This document shows positions 4,106 to 35,539 of a DNA stretch of 64,000 nt, piece after piece; within the stretch, counting starts at the first letter, position 1; each line of letters starts with the position of its first letter. The notes under the pieces were generated by a model, which ran no database searches, had not been told where the DNA came from, and saw only the letters and a program-made list of their open reading frames with translations. The position numbers were made by a program, and so were the translations under genes. Origin of the DNA: Natronomonas halophila (GTDB lineage Archaea; Halobacteriota; Halobacteria; Halobacteriales; Haloarculaceae); the NCBI RefSeq assembly GCF_013391085.1, contig NZ_CP058334.1:372001-436000 (forward strand). Reading direction: 5' to 3'.

Positions 4106-4536
4106 GTGACATCCTTGTCCCTGTCACGAAAGCCATCGTATTGGATGTTTTGGACATTGATTCTTCGCCGCGATGTGTGTTCGGTGTCGGGGCTTCGACT
4201 ATTAGCGCCGCCTTGACGTTATCACGTCTTGGGGCAGAAAGAGACACCACGATGTTCCTAATAACTATTCGAGTGGCATTATAATTCATATTGGCGAAGG
4301 ATTTATCAGTACAAGATGCGTATTAATGAGTGCAGGATGGCCAAAAGACCCATCCTGGTGTCGGTTACGGTCGTTTCGGGGTAGGGGAACCGCAGACGGG
4401 CGCCCGAACGGTGTCGGGGTAAACACCGCACGCTGGCCACAATGACTGATTACACGGGCTCCGGGGGGAGCCGCTGGCAGAACCGCACAACGAACACCGC
4501 CCGGTCCAGCATCGTTTCGGTGGGGGGTACCGATTG
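4106..4536. other. Long intergenic region with AT-rich part, TATA-like site and hairpins
   Basis: No convincing gene. Roughly 4130-4330 is visibly richer in A/T than its surroundings and contains a TATA-like TTATAATT at 4279-4286 on the plus strand. Downstream are two compact inverted repeats. One has an 8-bp stem (CAGGATGG at 4333-4340 with its complement at 4350-4357) and one has a 6-bp stem with a GGGG loop at 4457-4472. If transcription starts about 26 bases after the TATA-like site, both hairpins fall in the leader of the following HAD-HEAT gene. Small reading frames here overlap on both strands and show no protein family character. Confidence 0.45.
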
Positions 4537-31898: not shown

Positions 31899-33053
31899 TC
31901 AGGTGTGGCGGCCCGCAGCGGCCCGAATTTCGCCGGCGACGACCGAGAGTTCCTCGGAGCGACCGCTTACGGCGGACGCGACCTCTCGAAGCGTCGAGAC
32001 GGTACCCGTCAGATAACAGTCGCCGTCGCCCAGTCCGACCACGCCGCCGGCGTCTTCGGTCGCGGCCACGAGCGCCTCGCGGTCGGCATCGGGCAACTCA
32101 CCGACGAGGAAGGAAAGCGTCGCGCCGTCCTCGGGGTCGCCGGTTCCGTCCCGGAGGGTCATGCTCCGTTCGACCTCCCGGCGGGTCGTCCCGGTCAGCT
32201 CGACGACGCGTGCCTCGTCGTCGGCGACGCGCCGGTCATCGCCGAGGTGGTGGGCGACGAGCGCGACGTCCCGTGTCTCGGCGACGTCGTGGGTGCGGAT
32301 GATGTGGGCGCCGCGTTCGACTTCCATCGTCGCCGCGGCGAGGCTAACCGGCAACTGGTCCTCGGTGTCGGGCCGGTCGGCGATATCGCCGAGGAAGTCC
32401 TCGCGGTTCGTCGCGGTGACGATGGGGCGGCCGAAGGCGCGGAACTCCCGGAGGCGGCGGAACATCTCCCAGTTGTCCTCGTAGGTCTTCTCGTCGTACC
32501 AGCCTCCGAAGGCCGGGTCGATGATGGTCTTGTCCGTGAAGCCGCCGCGCTGGAGCGCCTCGAAGACATCGTCGATGGTCTTCAGGTGGCCCGGACTCTT
32601 GATATCCGGCGGGCTTGCCATCTTGATGACCGCGGCGTCTTGGTCCTCACAGACGCCGGGCATCTTCGGGTCGGCCCAGCCACAGACGTCGTTGACGAGG
32701 TCGAAGCCGCCGTCAAGCGCGCGCTCGGCGACCTCCGAGTAGCGCGTCTCGATGGACCACGCGACGTTCTCGTCGGTCTCGACGGCGTCCATGACCGCCA
32801 GCGCCTTGTCCAGTCGTTCGAGTTCCGTCTCCGGCGGCAGCCAGTCGTTCTTCGGGTTCGAGGACTGCAGGCCGACGTCGATGATGTCGGCGCCCTCGGC
32901 GATGAGTTCCTCCTCGGCGAATTCGACCGCCTGCTCCGGCGTCCCGTGGACGCTCGGGTCGTAGTTCGACTCGACGCTCATGTTGAGCACGCCCATGATG
33001 CGCGGGGGGTGGCCGTCGCCGACCGGGACCCCGCCAACGTCGACAGTTCGCAT
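31899..33053 (-). CDS. folP: Dihydropteroate synthase family protein
   Basis: 384 residues. The DHPS TIM-barrel signature IMGVLNMSVES opens the barrel, followed by GADIIDVGLQSSNP, VNDVCGWADPKMP and, late, THDVAETRDVALVAHH, corresponding to the pterin/pABA-binding loops. Classic bacterial DHPS is near 280 residues, so about 100 residues form a C-terminal extension of unknown role. It would condense a pterin pyrophosphate with an aryl amine in folate or methanopterin-like synthesis. A pterin pyrophosphokinase gene (mptE) lies 1.8 kb away. A minus-strand TATA-like TATTAC lies about 29 bases upstream of the ATG. Confidence 0.85.
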   Translation of the reverse strand: MRTVDVGGVPVGDGHPPRIMGVLNMSVESNYDPSVHGTPEQAVEFAEEELIAEGADIIDVGLQSSNPKNDWLPPETELERLDKALAVMDAVETDENVAWSIETRYSEVAERALDGGFDLVNDVCGWADPKMPGVCEDQDAAVIKMASPPDIKSPGHLKTIDDVFEALQRGGFTDKTIIDPAFGGWYDEKTYEDNWEMFRRLREFRAFGRPIVTATNREDFLGDIADRPDTEDQLPVSLAAATMEVERGAHIIRTHDVAETRDVALVAHHLGDDRRVADDEARVVELTGTTRREVERSMTLRDGTGDPEDGATLSFLVGELPDADREALVAATEDAGGVVGLGDGDCYLTGTVSTLREVASAVSGRSEELSVVAGEIRAAAGRHT

Positions 33054-33190: not shown

Positions 33191-34630
33191 ATGCAGGATT
33201 TCGACGGCTCCCCGCTCGACGCGGATTCGCTGGCGGTCGTCTCCAACCGGGAGCCGTACAGCCACGGATACGGGCCGGACGGTATCGAGGTGTCACGCCC
33301 GAAGGGCGGCCTCGTGACGGCGCTGGACGGCGTCCTTCGGGAGGCCGGGGGGACGTGGATTGCGTGGGGCAGCGGCGACGCGGATTTCGGCCCCGAAATC
33401 GCCGACGACGGCGTGGTACCGATGCCGCCCGAAACCGGCGAGTACACGCTCCGCCGCGTCCCGCTGAAGCGCCAGCAGGTCGAGGACTACTACTACGGCT
33501 ACAGCAATCAGGTGTTGTGGCCGGTCTGCCATCTGTCGACCGAACACATCCGGGTCGAACCGGGATTCTGGAACGCCTATGAGGCGGTCAACCGCCAGTT
33601 CGCCGAGGAAATCATCGCGAGCGGCCACGAGACGGTCTGGTTTCAGGATTACCACCTCGCACGGGCGCCGCGACACGTTCGCACCGAGCGGCCCGAGGCC
33701 TCGCTGGCGCAGTTCTGGCACATCCCGTGGCCGCATCCCGACGCCTTCGCCGTGACCCCGCATACCGAGGACCTGCTCGACGGCCTGCTGGCCAACGATG
33801 CCGTCGGCTTCCATACCGAACAGTACCGCCGGAACTTCCTGCGGTGTGTCGACGCGCTTCTGGACCCCGAAGCGGTCGATTTCGAGGCGGGAACGGTCGG
33901 CTATCGCGACCGGGCGACCGAGACGTTCGTCGCCCCCATCGGCGTCGACCCCGAGTCGATAGCAGCGAAGGCCCGTGCGGACGACGCCAGCGGGTTCTGG
34001 AACGCCTTACGCAAACGCCACGACTTCGACGAGGAGACGACGGTCGCTTTGGGCGTCGACCGCCTCGACTACACGAAGGGCATCCTCGAACGTCTCGACG
34101 CGCTGGCGCATCTCTGGGAGCGCCGTCCCGACTTGCGAGAGCGGCTGGTCTACGTCCAGAAGGCGACCGAGAGCCGGACGCATATCGACTCCTACCGGTG
34201 GTATCGTCGGGAGGTCATCGACCGCATCGACGAAATCAACAGTCGGTTCGCGACCGACGACTGGACGCCCATCGTGTATCTGGACGAGTCGGTCGCACGG
34301 GACGCTCTGCTCGGCCTCTATCGGAACGCCGACGTCTGTCTGGTCACCTCGAAACGCGACGGGATGAACCTCGTCGCCAAGGAGTTCGTGGCGGCCTCCC
34401 GCGGCGCCGACGGCGTGTTGGTCTGCTCGGAGTTCGCCGGCGCCGCCGAATCGCTGTGCCCGGCGGCGATTCCGGTCAACCCGGTCGACATCCCGGCGCT
34501 GGCCGACGCCATCGAGCGGGCGACCGATATGGACGCCGACGAACGCGCCGACCGCCTCGGCCGACTCCAGCGTGCAGTTGTCGATGAGGACATCGAATCG
34601 TGGTTCGTGACAAACCTCACGCACCTTTAG
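33191..34630 (+). CDS. otsA: Trehalose-6-phosphate synthase (GT20)
   Basis: 479 residues. The N-terminal VVSNREPYSHG and RPKGGLVTAL correspond to the OtsA glucose-6-phosphate loop. ETVWFQDYHLARAPRH (split in family as WvqDYHL), GVDRLDYTKGI and CLVTSKRDGMNLVAKEF complete the GT20 signature. It joins nucleotide-glucose and glucose-6-phosphate to trehalose-6-phosphate, the first step to trehalose, a compatible solute. A phosphatase gene (otsB) is not adjacent in this window. It diverges from the DHPS gene across 137 bases. Confidence 0.92.
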   Translation: MQDFDGSPLDADSLAVVSNREPYSHGYGPDGIEVSRPKGGLVTALDGVLREAGGTWIAWGSGDADFGPEIADDGVVPMPPETGEYTLRRVPLKRQQVEDYYYGYSNQVLWPVCHLSTEHIRVEPGFWNAYEAVNRQFAEEIIASGHETVWFQDYHLARAPRHVRTERPEASLAQFWHIPWPHPDAFAVTPHTEDLLDGLLANDAVGFHTEQYRRNFLRCVDALLDPEAVDFEAGTVGYRDRATETFVAPIGVDPESIAAKARADDASGFWNALRKRHDFDEETTVALGVDRLDYTKGILERLDALAHLWERRPDLRERLVYVQKATESRTHIDSYRWYRREVIDRIDEINSRFATDDWTPIVYLDESVARDALLGLYRNADVCLVTSKRDGMNLVAKEFVAASRGADGVLVCSEFAGAAESLCPAAIPVNPVDIPALADAIERATDMDADERADRLGRLQRAVVDEDIESWFVTNLTHL

Positions 34631-34730
34631 GCCCACCCTACTCACCAAGCCAGCGGGCCGTAGCGGTCACGAGGGAGTATCTCCTCGCGTCTGACGCATG
34701 TCGGACAGGTGACGTGCAGTACGAGAAAGC

Positions 34731-34736
34731 TTATAC
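34731..34736 (+). promoter_or_regulatory. TATA-like element upstream of mptE leader
   Basis: TTATAC preceded by GAAAGC. A start 26 bases on would be near 34759, exactly where the long hairpin below begins. Confidence 0.45.
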
Positions 34737-34758
34737 CAAAGCGACCGGAAAGGTCAGG

Positions 34759-34812
34759 TGGAAGCCCGGAGGGCACATCTGGGTAGGGGTACCTTGGTGC
34801 GCTCTGGGCCCA
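34759..34812 (+). other. Long stable hairpin in the predicted leader of mptE
   Basis: The 13-position arms 34764-34776 and 34797-34809 pair at twelve positions, one of them a G-U, with a single G-G mismatch. A further 3-bp extension lies beyond a two-A bulge (34759-34761 with 34810-34812). Inside sits a second stem (GGTA/TACC) closed by a GGGG loop. The 31 bases between the hairpin and the mptE ATG are unstructured by eye. It could be a cis-regulatory leader or a small RNA. Confidence 0.6.
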
Positions 34813-34843
34813 GTCTTAACATCTCTTAGTGGTAACTGTGGGT

Positions 34844-35539
34844 ATGCGATACGACGAGTGGCAGCCCGCTTATGAGGCGATCCTGTCGGATTTCGGCTTC
34901 GAGAAGGCCGCTGACGAACGAGCACGGGACCTCCTCGCGGAACTGATGGACGACGAGCAACCGCGTTCGGTCGCCGATATCGACCTCTCGGGCACCGTCG
35001 CCGTCTGCGGCGGCGCACCGTCACTGGTCGGCGACCTCGACGTCGCCCGCCGGGCCGACAGCGTCGTCGCGGCCTCCATCGCCGCGGATATCCTCCGGGA
35101 TGCCGGCATCGCCGTCGACTGTATGGTGACCGACCTCGACAAGAACCCCGAAACCGCCCGGGCGCTGACCGAGGCGGGAACACCCGTCGCGGCTCACGCC
35201 CACGGCGACAATATCGAGGCCCTCCGAGAGCAGGTGCCGAAGTTCGACGCCTCGGCCGTTCTACCGACGACGCAGGCCGACCCCGTCGGTTCGGTCGTCA
35301 ATTTGGGCGGCTTCACCGACGGCGACCGGGCGGCGTTTCTCGCCGACGCCTGCGGCGCCGATCGGCTCGTCTTCCCCGGCTGGGAGTTCGACGACCCGAC
35401 CGTCGGCCGGCAAAAGGCCCGGAAACTGCTGTGGGCCGAGCGCCTGCTCCGGTGGCTGGAAATGCGACGTGAGGAGGAGTTCGGCCTCCTCGATGGCCGC
35501 CGCGGACGCATCGAATTGCCGTGGCTGGCCGGCAGGTAG
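34844..35539 (+). CDS. mptE: 6-hydroxymethylpterin pyrophosphokinase (MptE-like)
   Basis: 231 residues. The archaeal MptE/DUF115 pattern is visible: VAVCGGAPSLVGDL (nucleotide loop), DCMVTDLDKNPE with acidic metal-binding residues, VAAHAHGDN, and a C-terminal GWEFDDPTVGRQKARKL. It transfers pyrophosphate from ATP to 6-hydroxymethyl-7,8-dihydropterin, giving the substrate of dihydropteroate synthase. The start MRYDEW at 34844 matches the family; an in-frame ATG 15 bases upstream is less likely. It is followed by an MBL-fold gene with its own promoter. Confidence 0.9.
   Translation: MRYDEWQPAYEAILSDFGFEKAADERARDLLAELMDDEQPRSVADIDLSGTVAVCGGAPSLVGDLDVARRADSVVAASIAADILRDAGIAVDCMVTDLDKNPETARALTEAGTPVAAHAHGDNIEALREQVPKFDASAVLPTTQADPVGSVVNLGGFTDGDRAAFLADACGADRLVFPGWEFDDPTVGRQKARKLLWAERLLRWLEMRREEEFGLLDGRRGRIELPWLAGR

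Follow-up and report, generated by a model that had tools for sequence, protein, structure and literature searches.

A conserved haloarchaeal hairpin as a probable trans-acting small RNA for the 5' end of the S-layer glycoprotein mRNA

We suggest, at a probability of roughly 87%, that a hairpin encoded upstream of an mptE-like gene of Natronomonas halophila is a conserved haloarchaeal trans-acting small RNA that would bind the 5' end of the S-layer mRNA; the figure applies to the small RNA and to the S-layer mRNA as its target, whichever way the effect goes. In the proposed scheme, a TATA promoter would start transcription at the foot of the hairpin, as judged from its spacing, and the RNA would fold into a stem-loop that, from comparison between genomes, displays an almost invariant 12-nt loop, GGGUAGGGGUAC, which would pair with the terminal 10-12 nt of the S-layer mRNA. 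This supposes transcription of a stable RNA, a start of the S-layer gene (csg) at the complement, and pairing of the two RNAs in cells. The window referred to throughout is the whole stretch of 64,000 nt of DNA that was analysed.

Results and discussion

The hairpin and its promoter

The elements of the small RNA gene are as follows (all on the plus strand):

34723..34737: BRE/TATA promoter, GAGAAAGCTTATACC, read from the sequence; its offset is fixed in 75/75 copies
34730-34735: TATA-like element CTTATA, read from the sequence, inside GAGAAAGCTTATACC
34758..34760: predicted transcription start and RNA 5' end, from TATA spacing
34759..34812: small RNA hairpin of 54 nt (MFE fold; basal helix and lower stem covary)
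within 34759-34812: basal helix UGG/CCA, followed by an AA bulge (MFE fold)
34764-34771 with 34802-34809: lower stem (MFE fold, covariation)
34772/34801: 1x1 mismatch between lower and upper stem (MFE fold)
34773-34776 with 34797-34800: upper stem (MFE fold)
34781..34792: apical loop or seed GGGUAGGGGUAC, 12/12 Watson-Crick to the predicted S-layer glycoprotein mRNA 5' end
34813..34828: T-containing 3' flank, from sequence only; possible weak terminator or mptE TATA box

The initial annotation had described a 54-base hairpin with twelve pairs in thirteen positions, and the MFE fold bears this out, with a main stem of 8+4 pairs around a single 1x1 mismatch. The TATA-like element that it had placed ahead of the hairpin is present as well, at -30 to -33 from the start of the aligned fragment in 75/75 copies; because this spacing is fixed, transcription is predicted to start at the hairpin foot, so that the start at 34758-34760 itself stands as a position derived from spacing. 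By itself the stability of the 113-nt stretch is only mildly unusual (-44.1 kcal/mol, z -2.07, with 5/200 shuffles as good), and the strong evidence for the hairpin is its conservation. A TTTAT/TTATT-like motif is seen 3' of the hairpin in many lineages (34813-34843 in the window, and in relatives); a terminator for the small RNA and a promoter for a leaderless mptE mRNA are both possible.

Known RNA classes did not account for the element. At the gathering score, Rfam matched one tRNA elsewhere in the window and nothing more; the hairpin element had no match at E<=10, and four target loci had none at E<=1. Archaeal H/ACA guide RNAs carry an ACA box directly 3' of a hairpin; here ACA follows the stem only in some lineages, others having CAA, CAG or CGA, and with no Rfam match this candidate was rejected. 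A G-quadruplex was dropped by inspection, there being too few G-runs.

Conservation and covariation

A 161-nt query found matches in 39/60 genomes at E<=1, including 18/19 other genomes of the same genus. A strict pattern found one copy each in 64/99 genomes of the order, spread over 11/17 families, with no match in the reversed control; in a draw of 196 genomes from the phylum it found 29/33 genomes of the order and 0/163 others, the reversed control giving 2 matches.

The hairpin is real and well supported by covariation. As the register of the upper stem shifts between lineages, the column-wise test covers the basal helix and lower stem, nine pairs in all, in 73 distinct sequences and against 500 shuffles. 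The initial annotation had named a lack of covariation as a point against the structure; instead, 96.7% of cells were paired (86.2% in shuffles), 91 cells were changed on both sides (26.5 in shuffles) and the covariation score was 0.434 (0.220 in shuffles), values that 0/500 shuffles reached in each case, and every slid register of the helix scored worse than the actual one. Two weaker measures gave mixed results: two-sided change occurs in 5 of the pairs, a count that 145/500 shuffles reached and that is not unusual, while the number of further pair types, 17, was reached by 4/500. The element thus combines a conserved RNA structure with an exposed seed, as is looked for in a trans-acting base-pairing sRNA.

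The loop complement at the S-layer gene

In the genome from which the window comes, the S-layer glycoprotein mRNA is predicted to begin with 12 nt whose reverse complement is the loop. A search of this 3.2-Mb genome for the pattern GYRCCCCYRCCC gave three matches, against 22 for the reversed control; besides the RNA itself they are a GTACCCCCACCC and an exact GTACCCCTACCC, the latter being the single exact loop complement outside the RNA:

G000:C1:760283-760294, outside the window, minus strand: exact complement GTACCCCTACCC, from a genome-wide pattern search

Pairing with 5S or 16S rRNA, considered by eye, was dropped, since a search for full-length complements placed the complement only at this S-layer site. 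The promoter there reads CCACAAAGCATTTATA, GTACCCCTACCC follows 28 nt after the first T of TTTATA, and a further 89 nt lead to the ATG of a 974-aa protein. This protein has a halo_sig_pep signal, a BGTF surface domain and a PGF-CTERM, all over their cut-offs; it also matches, for the greater part of its length, the model 'ArtA-dependent S-layer glycoprotein' (E 7e-51, below the model cut-off) and is the genome's best halo_surf_glyco hit, again below the cut-off. The 12-mer duplex alone is calculated at -23.7 kcal/mol, cofolding the RNA with this genome's leader is more favourable than the two separate folds by 7.1 kcal/mol, and in its own predicted fold the leader leaves its first 11 nucleotides unpaired.

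The same arrangement of TATA box, complement and surface glycoprotein was found in genomes G128, G131 and G125, and three broader surveys followed it across the order. Matches to halo_surf_glyco exist in 60/62 genomes at E<=0.001, 5 of them over the cut-off, so in most genomes the surface-glycoprotein label rests on below-cut-off matches together with a signal peptide. Upstream of these genes the complement site is present in 45/54 regions, 40 by script and 5 by reading (L176, L177, L210, L211, L214), and the spacing from TATA box to site is 28-31 nt in 40/40 regions with a scored site. The nine regions with no site (L179, L193, L205, L213, L215, L219, L225, L226, L227) include some paralogues or mis-placed stretches; in genome G032 the right surface-glycoprotein gene is at locus L257. 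Among 20 further stretches with complement sites, 16 were dropped as not lying at S-layer promoters, and L257, L259, L269 and L271 do lie at such promoters.

The second survey used a DNA-only pattern of promoter plus complement, AMAAAR-N24-40-TRCCCCTRCCC, which matched 44 places in 41/99 genomes (reversed control, 8 places in 6 genomes). The RNA is present by the strict pattern in 40 of these 41 genomes, and the remaining one (G119) has a detached copy. One locus taken from each of 30 pattern-positive genomes led in 30/30 cases into a surface-glycoprotein signal peptide, 27 recognised by a search expression and 3 by reading. Conversely, 24/64 RNA-bearing genomes were not matched by the strict target pattern, several of them having laxer sites.

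The third route started from the signal-peptide family alone: 39 genomes were searched, 30 had a match, and the site was present in 20 of the resulting 30 loci (17 by strict script; L314, L318 and L321 by reading). Here RNA and site were absent together, with a site in 0/6 loci from genomes in which no RNA was found (G020, G022, G025, G044, G047, G067) and in 20/24 others (Fisher p 0.00035). Some surface-glycoprotein loci of RNA-bearing genomes had no site (G081, and G145 and G050, which are short frames) or were not scorable (G073).

Some 70-160 nt separate the site from the S-layer start codon, and it is predicted to be accessible: over 40 leaders the mean unpaired probability of the 12-mer is 0.73 against 0.39 for the rest, and it is higher in 36/40.

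Three further observations concern these loci. In many genomes an AUG directly after the paired site opens a non-conserved upstream frame (30-41 codons in the S-layer leaders L134, L154, L161 and L163), and elsewhere there is no AUG in that place. Eight genomes of family f5, genus g21 (G039, G067, G084, G092, G099, G106, G114, G122) have neither RNA nor site by the strict patterns, and G055 and G077 of the sister genus g35 have both; a joint loss in g21 is possible. Finally, G024, G112, G120, G149, G124 and G085 have two or three surface-glycoprotein genes, of which more than one carries the 5' complement, in versions whose outer letters differ slightly.

Co-variation of loop and target

Loop and target were compared in a hand-compiled table of 84 entries, which holds only genomes where both elements were seen and so gives no measure of absence; two of its entries, G079 and G151, look like duplicates of a single genome, G032 and G135 are the same genome and were counted once, and G088 (site ACACCCCTACCC) and three genomes with an extra C were left aside. 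All 12 positions form Watson-Crick pairs in 43 of the 84 entries and at least 11 do so in 70, while loop positions 5-9 pair in 84/84. Positions 11-12 are often mismatched, and thus a duplex of about 10 bp is the general case.

Compensatory changes between species, as expected for a genuine sRNA target, are found among the variable positions, with few independent events and with kinship ignored. Position 4 pairs as U-A in 76 entries, C-G in 6 and U-G in 2, and position 10 as C-G in 3; the six C4-G pairs may represent one or two events. Loop GGATAGGGGCGU with target ACACCCCUAUCC is one example of the two changing together. In G105, loop GGATAGGGGCGT faces target ACACCCCTATCC, with three compensated positions and one mismatch; G138 has loop GGGCAGGGGAAG with target CTACCCCTGCCC, G137 and G139 have loop GGGCAGGGGCAG with target GTGCCCCTGCCC, and G136 has loop GGGCAGGGGCAG with target TAGCCCCTGCCA. 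None of 20000 loop permutations, which ignore kinship, reached the matched mean of 11.345 (permuted 11.150, sd 0.032). The 11 variant-loop genomes give a more divided picture: the genome's own loop forms more Watson-Crick pairs than the standard loop in 5, and if G-U pairs are given half weight it outscores the standard loop in 3 (G105, G136, G138), equals it in 4 and falls below it in 4 (G021, G032, G094, G134).

Three S-layer leaders carry an extra C, UACCCCCUACCC (L192, L196 and L197, in G129, G130 and G064), which would bulge against the standard loop. A closed loop may also be unable to hold 12 bp unless the upper stem opens.

Possible effects on the S-layer mRNA

The small RNA probably controls the making of the S-layer coat. 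As to how, we put it at about even odds that it shields or stabilises the 5' end of the S-layer mRNA and/or promotes its use, with repression or conditional switching as a weaker but serious contender. In its most specific form, which we propose tentatively and at slightly less than even odds, the RNA would be a detachable 'cap' whose loop seals the mRNA 5' end against 5'-3' decay and so sets the supply of coat; the S-layer mRNA would perhaps also be steered to the membrane. Protection of the 5' end is favoured by the position of the site, which lies at the terminus that a 5'-3' exonuclease would attack and well away from the start codon, and by the expression of csg, the most highly expressed gene in Haloquadratum according to the available part of a transcriptome study (PMC5496347). 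In Haloferax vesicles, the accessible portion of another report describes the presence of Ribonuclease J, called an exonuclease there, and S-layer mRNA, in the form of fragments, as the most enriched transcript (PMC10927574).

The same two RNAs could pair with the opposite outcome, the small RNA repressing the S-layer mRNA by translation block or decay in the manner of bacterial envelope sRNAs on porin mRNAs, and we regard this as possible but less probable than protection. Both the complementarity and the accessible 5' tail would suit a repressor, and where an AUG directly follows the paired site, as in many genomes, pairing could stop 5'-end-dependent initiation. The 70-160 nt between site and S-layer start codon speak against repression, however, and constant repression fits poorly with the top rank of csg expression given in the available text on Haloquadratum (PMC5496347).

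Other readings of the shared 12-mer

The loop might instead mainly bind a protein or another RNA, with the S-layer match being secondary. This would account for the invariance of loop positions 5-9 in 84/84 entries, which is stricter than pairing alone demands, and our genome-wide search covered full-length complements only; however, the target is equally invariant at the matching positions, and the full complement is unique in the genome. We thus consider another main partner unlikely.

Somewhat less likely still is that the shared 12-mer is a double-stranded DNA operator, read by a protein in opposite orientation at the two genes. Both copies do lie just downstream of TATA boxes, and an ACAAAG-type upstream motif is found in several Haladaptatus mini-genes (described below) and at many S-layer promoters. 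Against this, the motif in the RNA gene is the loop of a covarying RNA hairpin, which an operator would not need, and loop and target change together in G105 and G136-G139.

Position relative to mptE and detached copies

The neighbouring genes in the window are:

34844..35539, plus strand: mptE-like gene, starting with ATG at 34844 (GTG 34829 in the ORF list); Pfam PF01973 MptE-like, E 1.1e-11
33191-34630: family-20 glycosyltransferase gene (OtsA-like), below cut-off
31899-33053: pterin-binding enzyme gene (dihydropteroate synthase type), just below the NCBIfam cut-off

The OtsA-like gene is the immediate upstream neighbour of the small RNA. The folP-type gene has a displaced and inverted position here; most of the loci L002-L026 have a folP match upstream and on the same strand as mptE. 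All of L001-L026 carry mptE, while L027-L030, which do not, and L122-L126 and L132 were discarded as chance hits.

In the best 80 of 330 mptE relatives (closest, Natronomonas sp. CBA1123 at 81% and N. gomsonensis at 80%), the loop motif lies on the same strand within 700 nt upstream of mptE in 74/80 loci, the exceptions being L042, L046, L047, L066, L080 and the truncated L099. The genome of L099 carries the RNA on another contig (L111). In the genomes of L066 and L080 the RNA was not found by model and pattern searches, of which the former scored 150 candidates per genome at most, so that its misses are no proof of absence. From the loop end to the mptE start codon the distance varies from 34 to 326 nt, the 34 nt being seen in Halorussus.

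The RNA also occurs away from mptE. Ten mini-hairpins were found in six Haladaptatus-type genomes, none of them beside mptE. G064, G119, G128, G129 and G130 have a detached copy elsewhere and no mptE-linked copy was found in them, G128, G129 and G130 being the Haladaptatus genomes of loci L042, L046 and L047; G128 has three detached copies, and G131 (Haladaptatus halobius) has three in addition to an mptE-linked one. The pattern that finds these copies matched 6/21 genomes against 4/21 for the reversed control and alone proves nothing; what makes the copies convincing is that five of the six matches resemble each other in sequence and share TATA, hairpin and loop. A bare 12-mer search gave fewer matches than its reversed control. 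In the mini-copies a TATA-like box, identified by reading, is followed by a stem of 4-10 bp closing GGTAGGGGTACA, the 3' flanks are mostly T-rich, and no mptE, folP or otsA match was found in the 1.2-3.1 kb around them. Since the stem letters vary (ACCUCG/CGAGGU, GUCUCG/CGAGAC) while the loop GGUAGGGGUACA stays constant, we infer that the loop is the functional core and that the RNA works away from mptE.

The Haladaptatus mini-copies L127-L131, L136, L166 and L172 carry a ACACAAAG-type upstream promoter motif that is common to many S-layer genes, hinting at a possible co-regulation. Two further occurrences of the loop motif or a near match, L173 (G128:C24:310023) and position 4379 of the window, fit, by reading, neither the RNA gene nor the S-layer site.

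These results favour one of the possibilities raised in the initial annotation, a free small RNA, through its own promoter motif, the variable distance to mptE and the detached copies without mptE; a separate transcription unit with its own promoter, as predicted here, is what a trans-acting base-pairing sRNA would have. The suggestion of an mptE leader fares less well: the hairpin is usually upstream of mptE, but the link looks positional, and the small RNA may in addition be part of the mptE leader in some lineages such as Halorussus. A pterin-responsive element finds no support, because the hairpin has no Rfam match and complementarity to the S-layer mRNA accounts for its conserved loop; a pterin/tetrahydrofolate riboswitch in particular was rejected, as no described family matches and the RNA is not always in cis. 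A purely cis-acting mptE leader, whether a pterin/folate riboswitch or a translational control, is therefore the least probable of the readings considered, its case resting on the strand, the upstream position and the short distance in some genera. A further point against it is that the RNA stays with mptE in the window even though the folP-type gene has moved.

Comparison with known systems

The bacterial envelope sRNAs MicA (on ompA), RybB and MicF repress their targets by pairing close to the ribosome-binding site, in most cases with Hfq. The RNA described here would resemble them as a trans-encoded small RNA pairing with the leader of an abundant surface protein's mRNA; it differs in the predicted pairing of its loop with the outermost 10-12 nt of the mRNA, well away from the start codon, in having one dedicated kind of target, and in its order-wide conservation in archaea. 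A second parallel is miR-122, which covers the 5' end of hepatitis C virus RNA and protects it against 5'-3' exonuclease. In both cases a small RNA would cover a 5' terminus, but the archaeal RNA does so with a hairpin loop and without Argonaute or a viral context, and its protective role is only inferred.

Among archaeal RNAs, sRNA162 of Methanosarcina mazei acts on mRNAs in trans, as is proposed here, and is set apart by organism group and target according to the available description (PMC3510493). The Haloferax volcanii sRNAs are haloarchaeal and intergenic too, but the accessible description gives no target of this kind; it reports H225.2R, hts10 and htsf359 in 19, 18 and 12 other haloarchaeal genomes, and 22/27 sRNA genes of one Haloferax study without a homologue in any other haloarchaeon (PMC3956466). 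A 69-nt conserved transcript is mentioned for Halococcus in the available part of PMC7002113, and existing lists of Haloferax or community sRNAs may already contain the small RNA. Following the neighbour name HVO_2519 through the literature text available gave a tRNA-Met gene and a hypothetical protein, and nothing else. The literature searched, which included few subscription papers and no supplements, yielded no account of this RNA-mRNA pair, and the pair is not described in the accessible portions of PMC8305020, PMC10927574, PMC7714728, PMC5496347, PMC6523106, PMC4983044, PMC5892119, PMC7002113 and PMC8303175.

Conclusions

What emerges, from sequence data, is a candidate small RNA, found by a strict pattern in 64/99 haloarchaeal genomes, with a single dedicated type of target and a 10-12 bp interaction open to testing, which opens the question of the archaeal control of S-layer production. 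It suggests 5'-end protection in trans, in a group whose mRNAs are mostly leaderless (72% in Haloferax, according to the available text of PMC4983044). If the RNA does act as a detachable cap, the supply of the cell coat would be set by an RNA gene of 30-60 nt.
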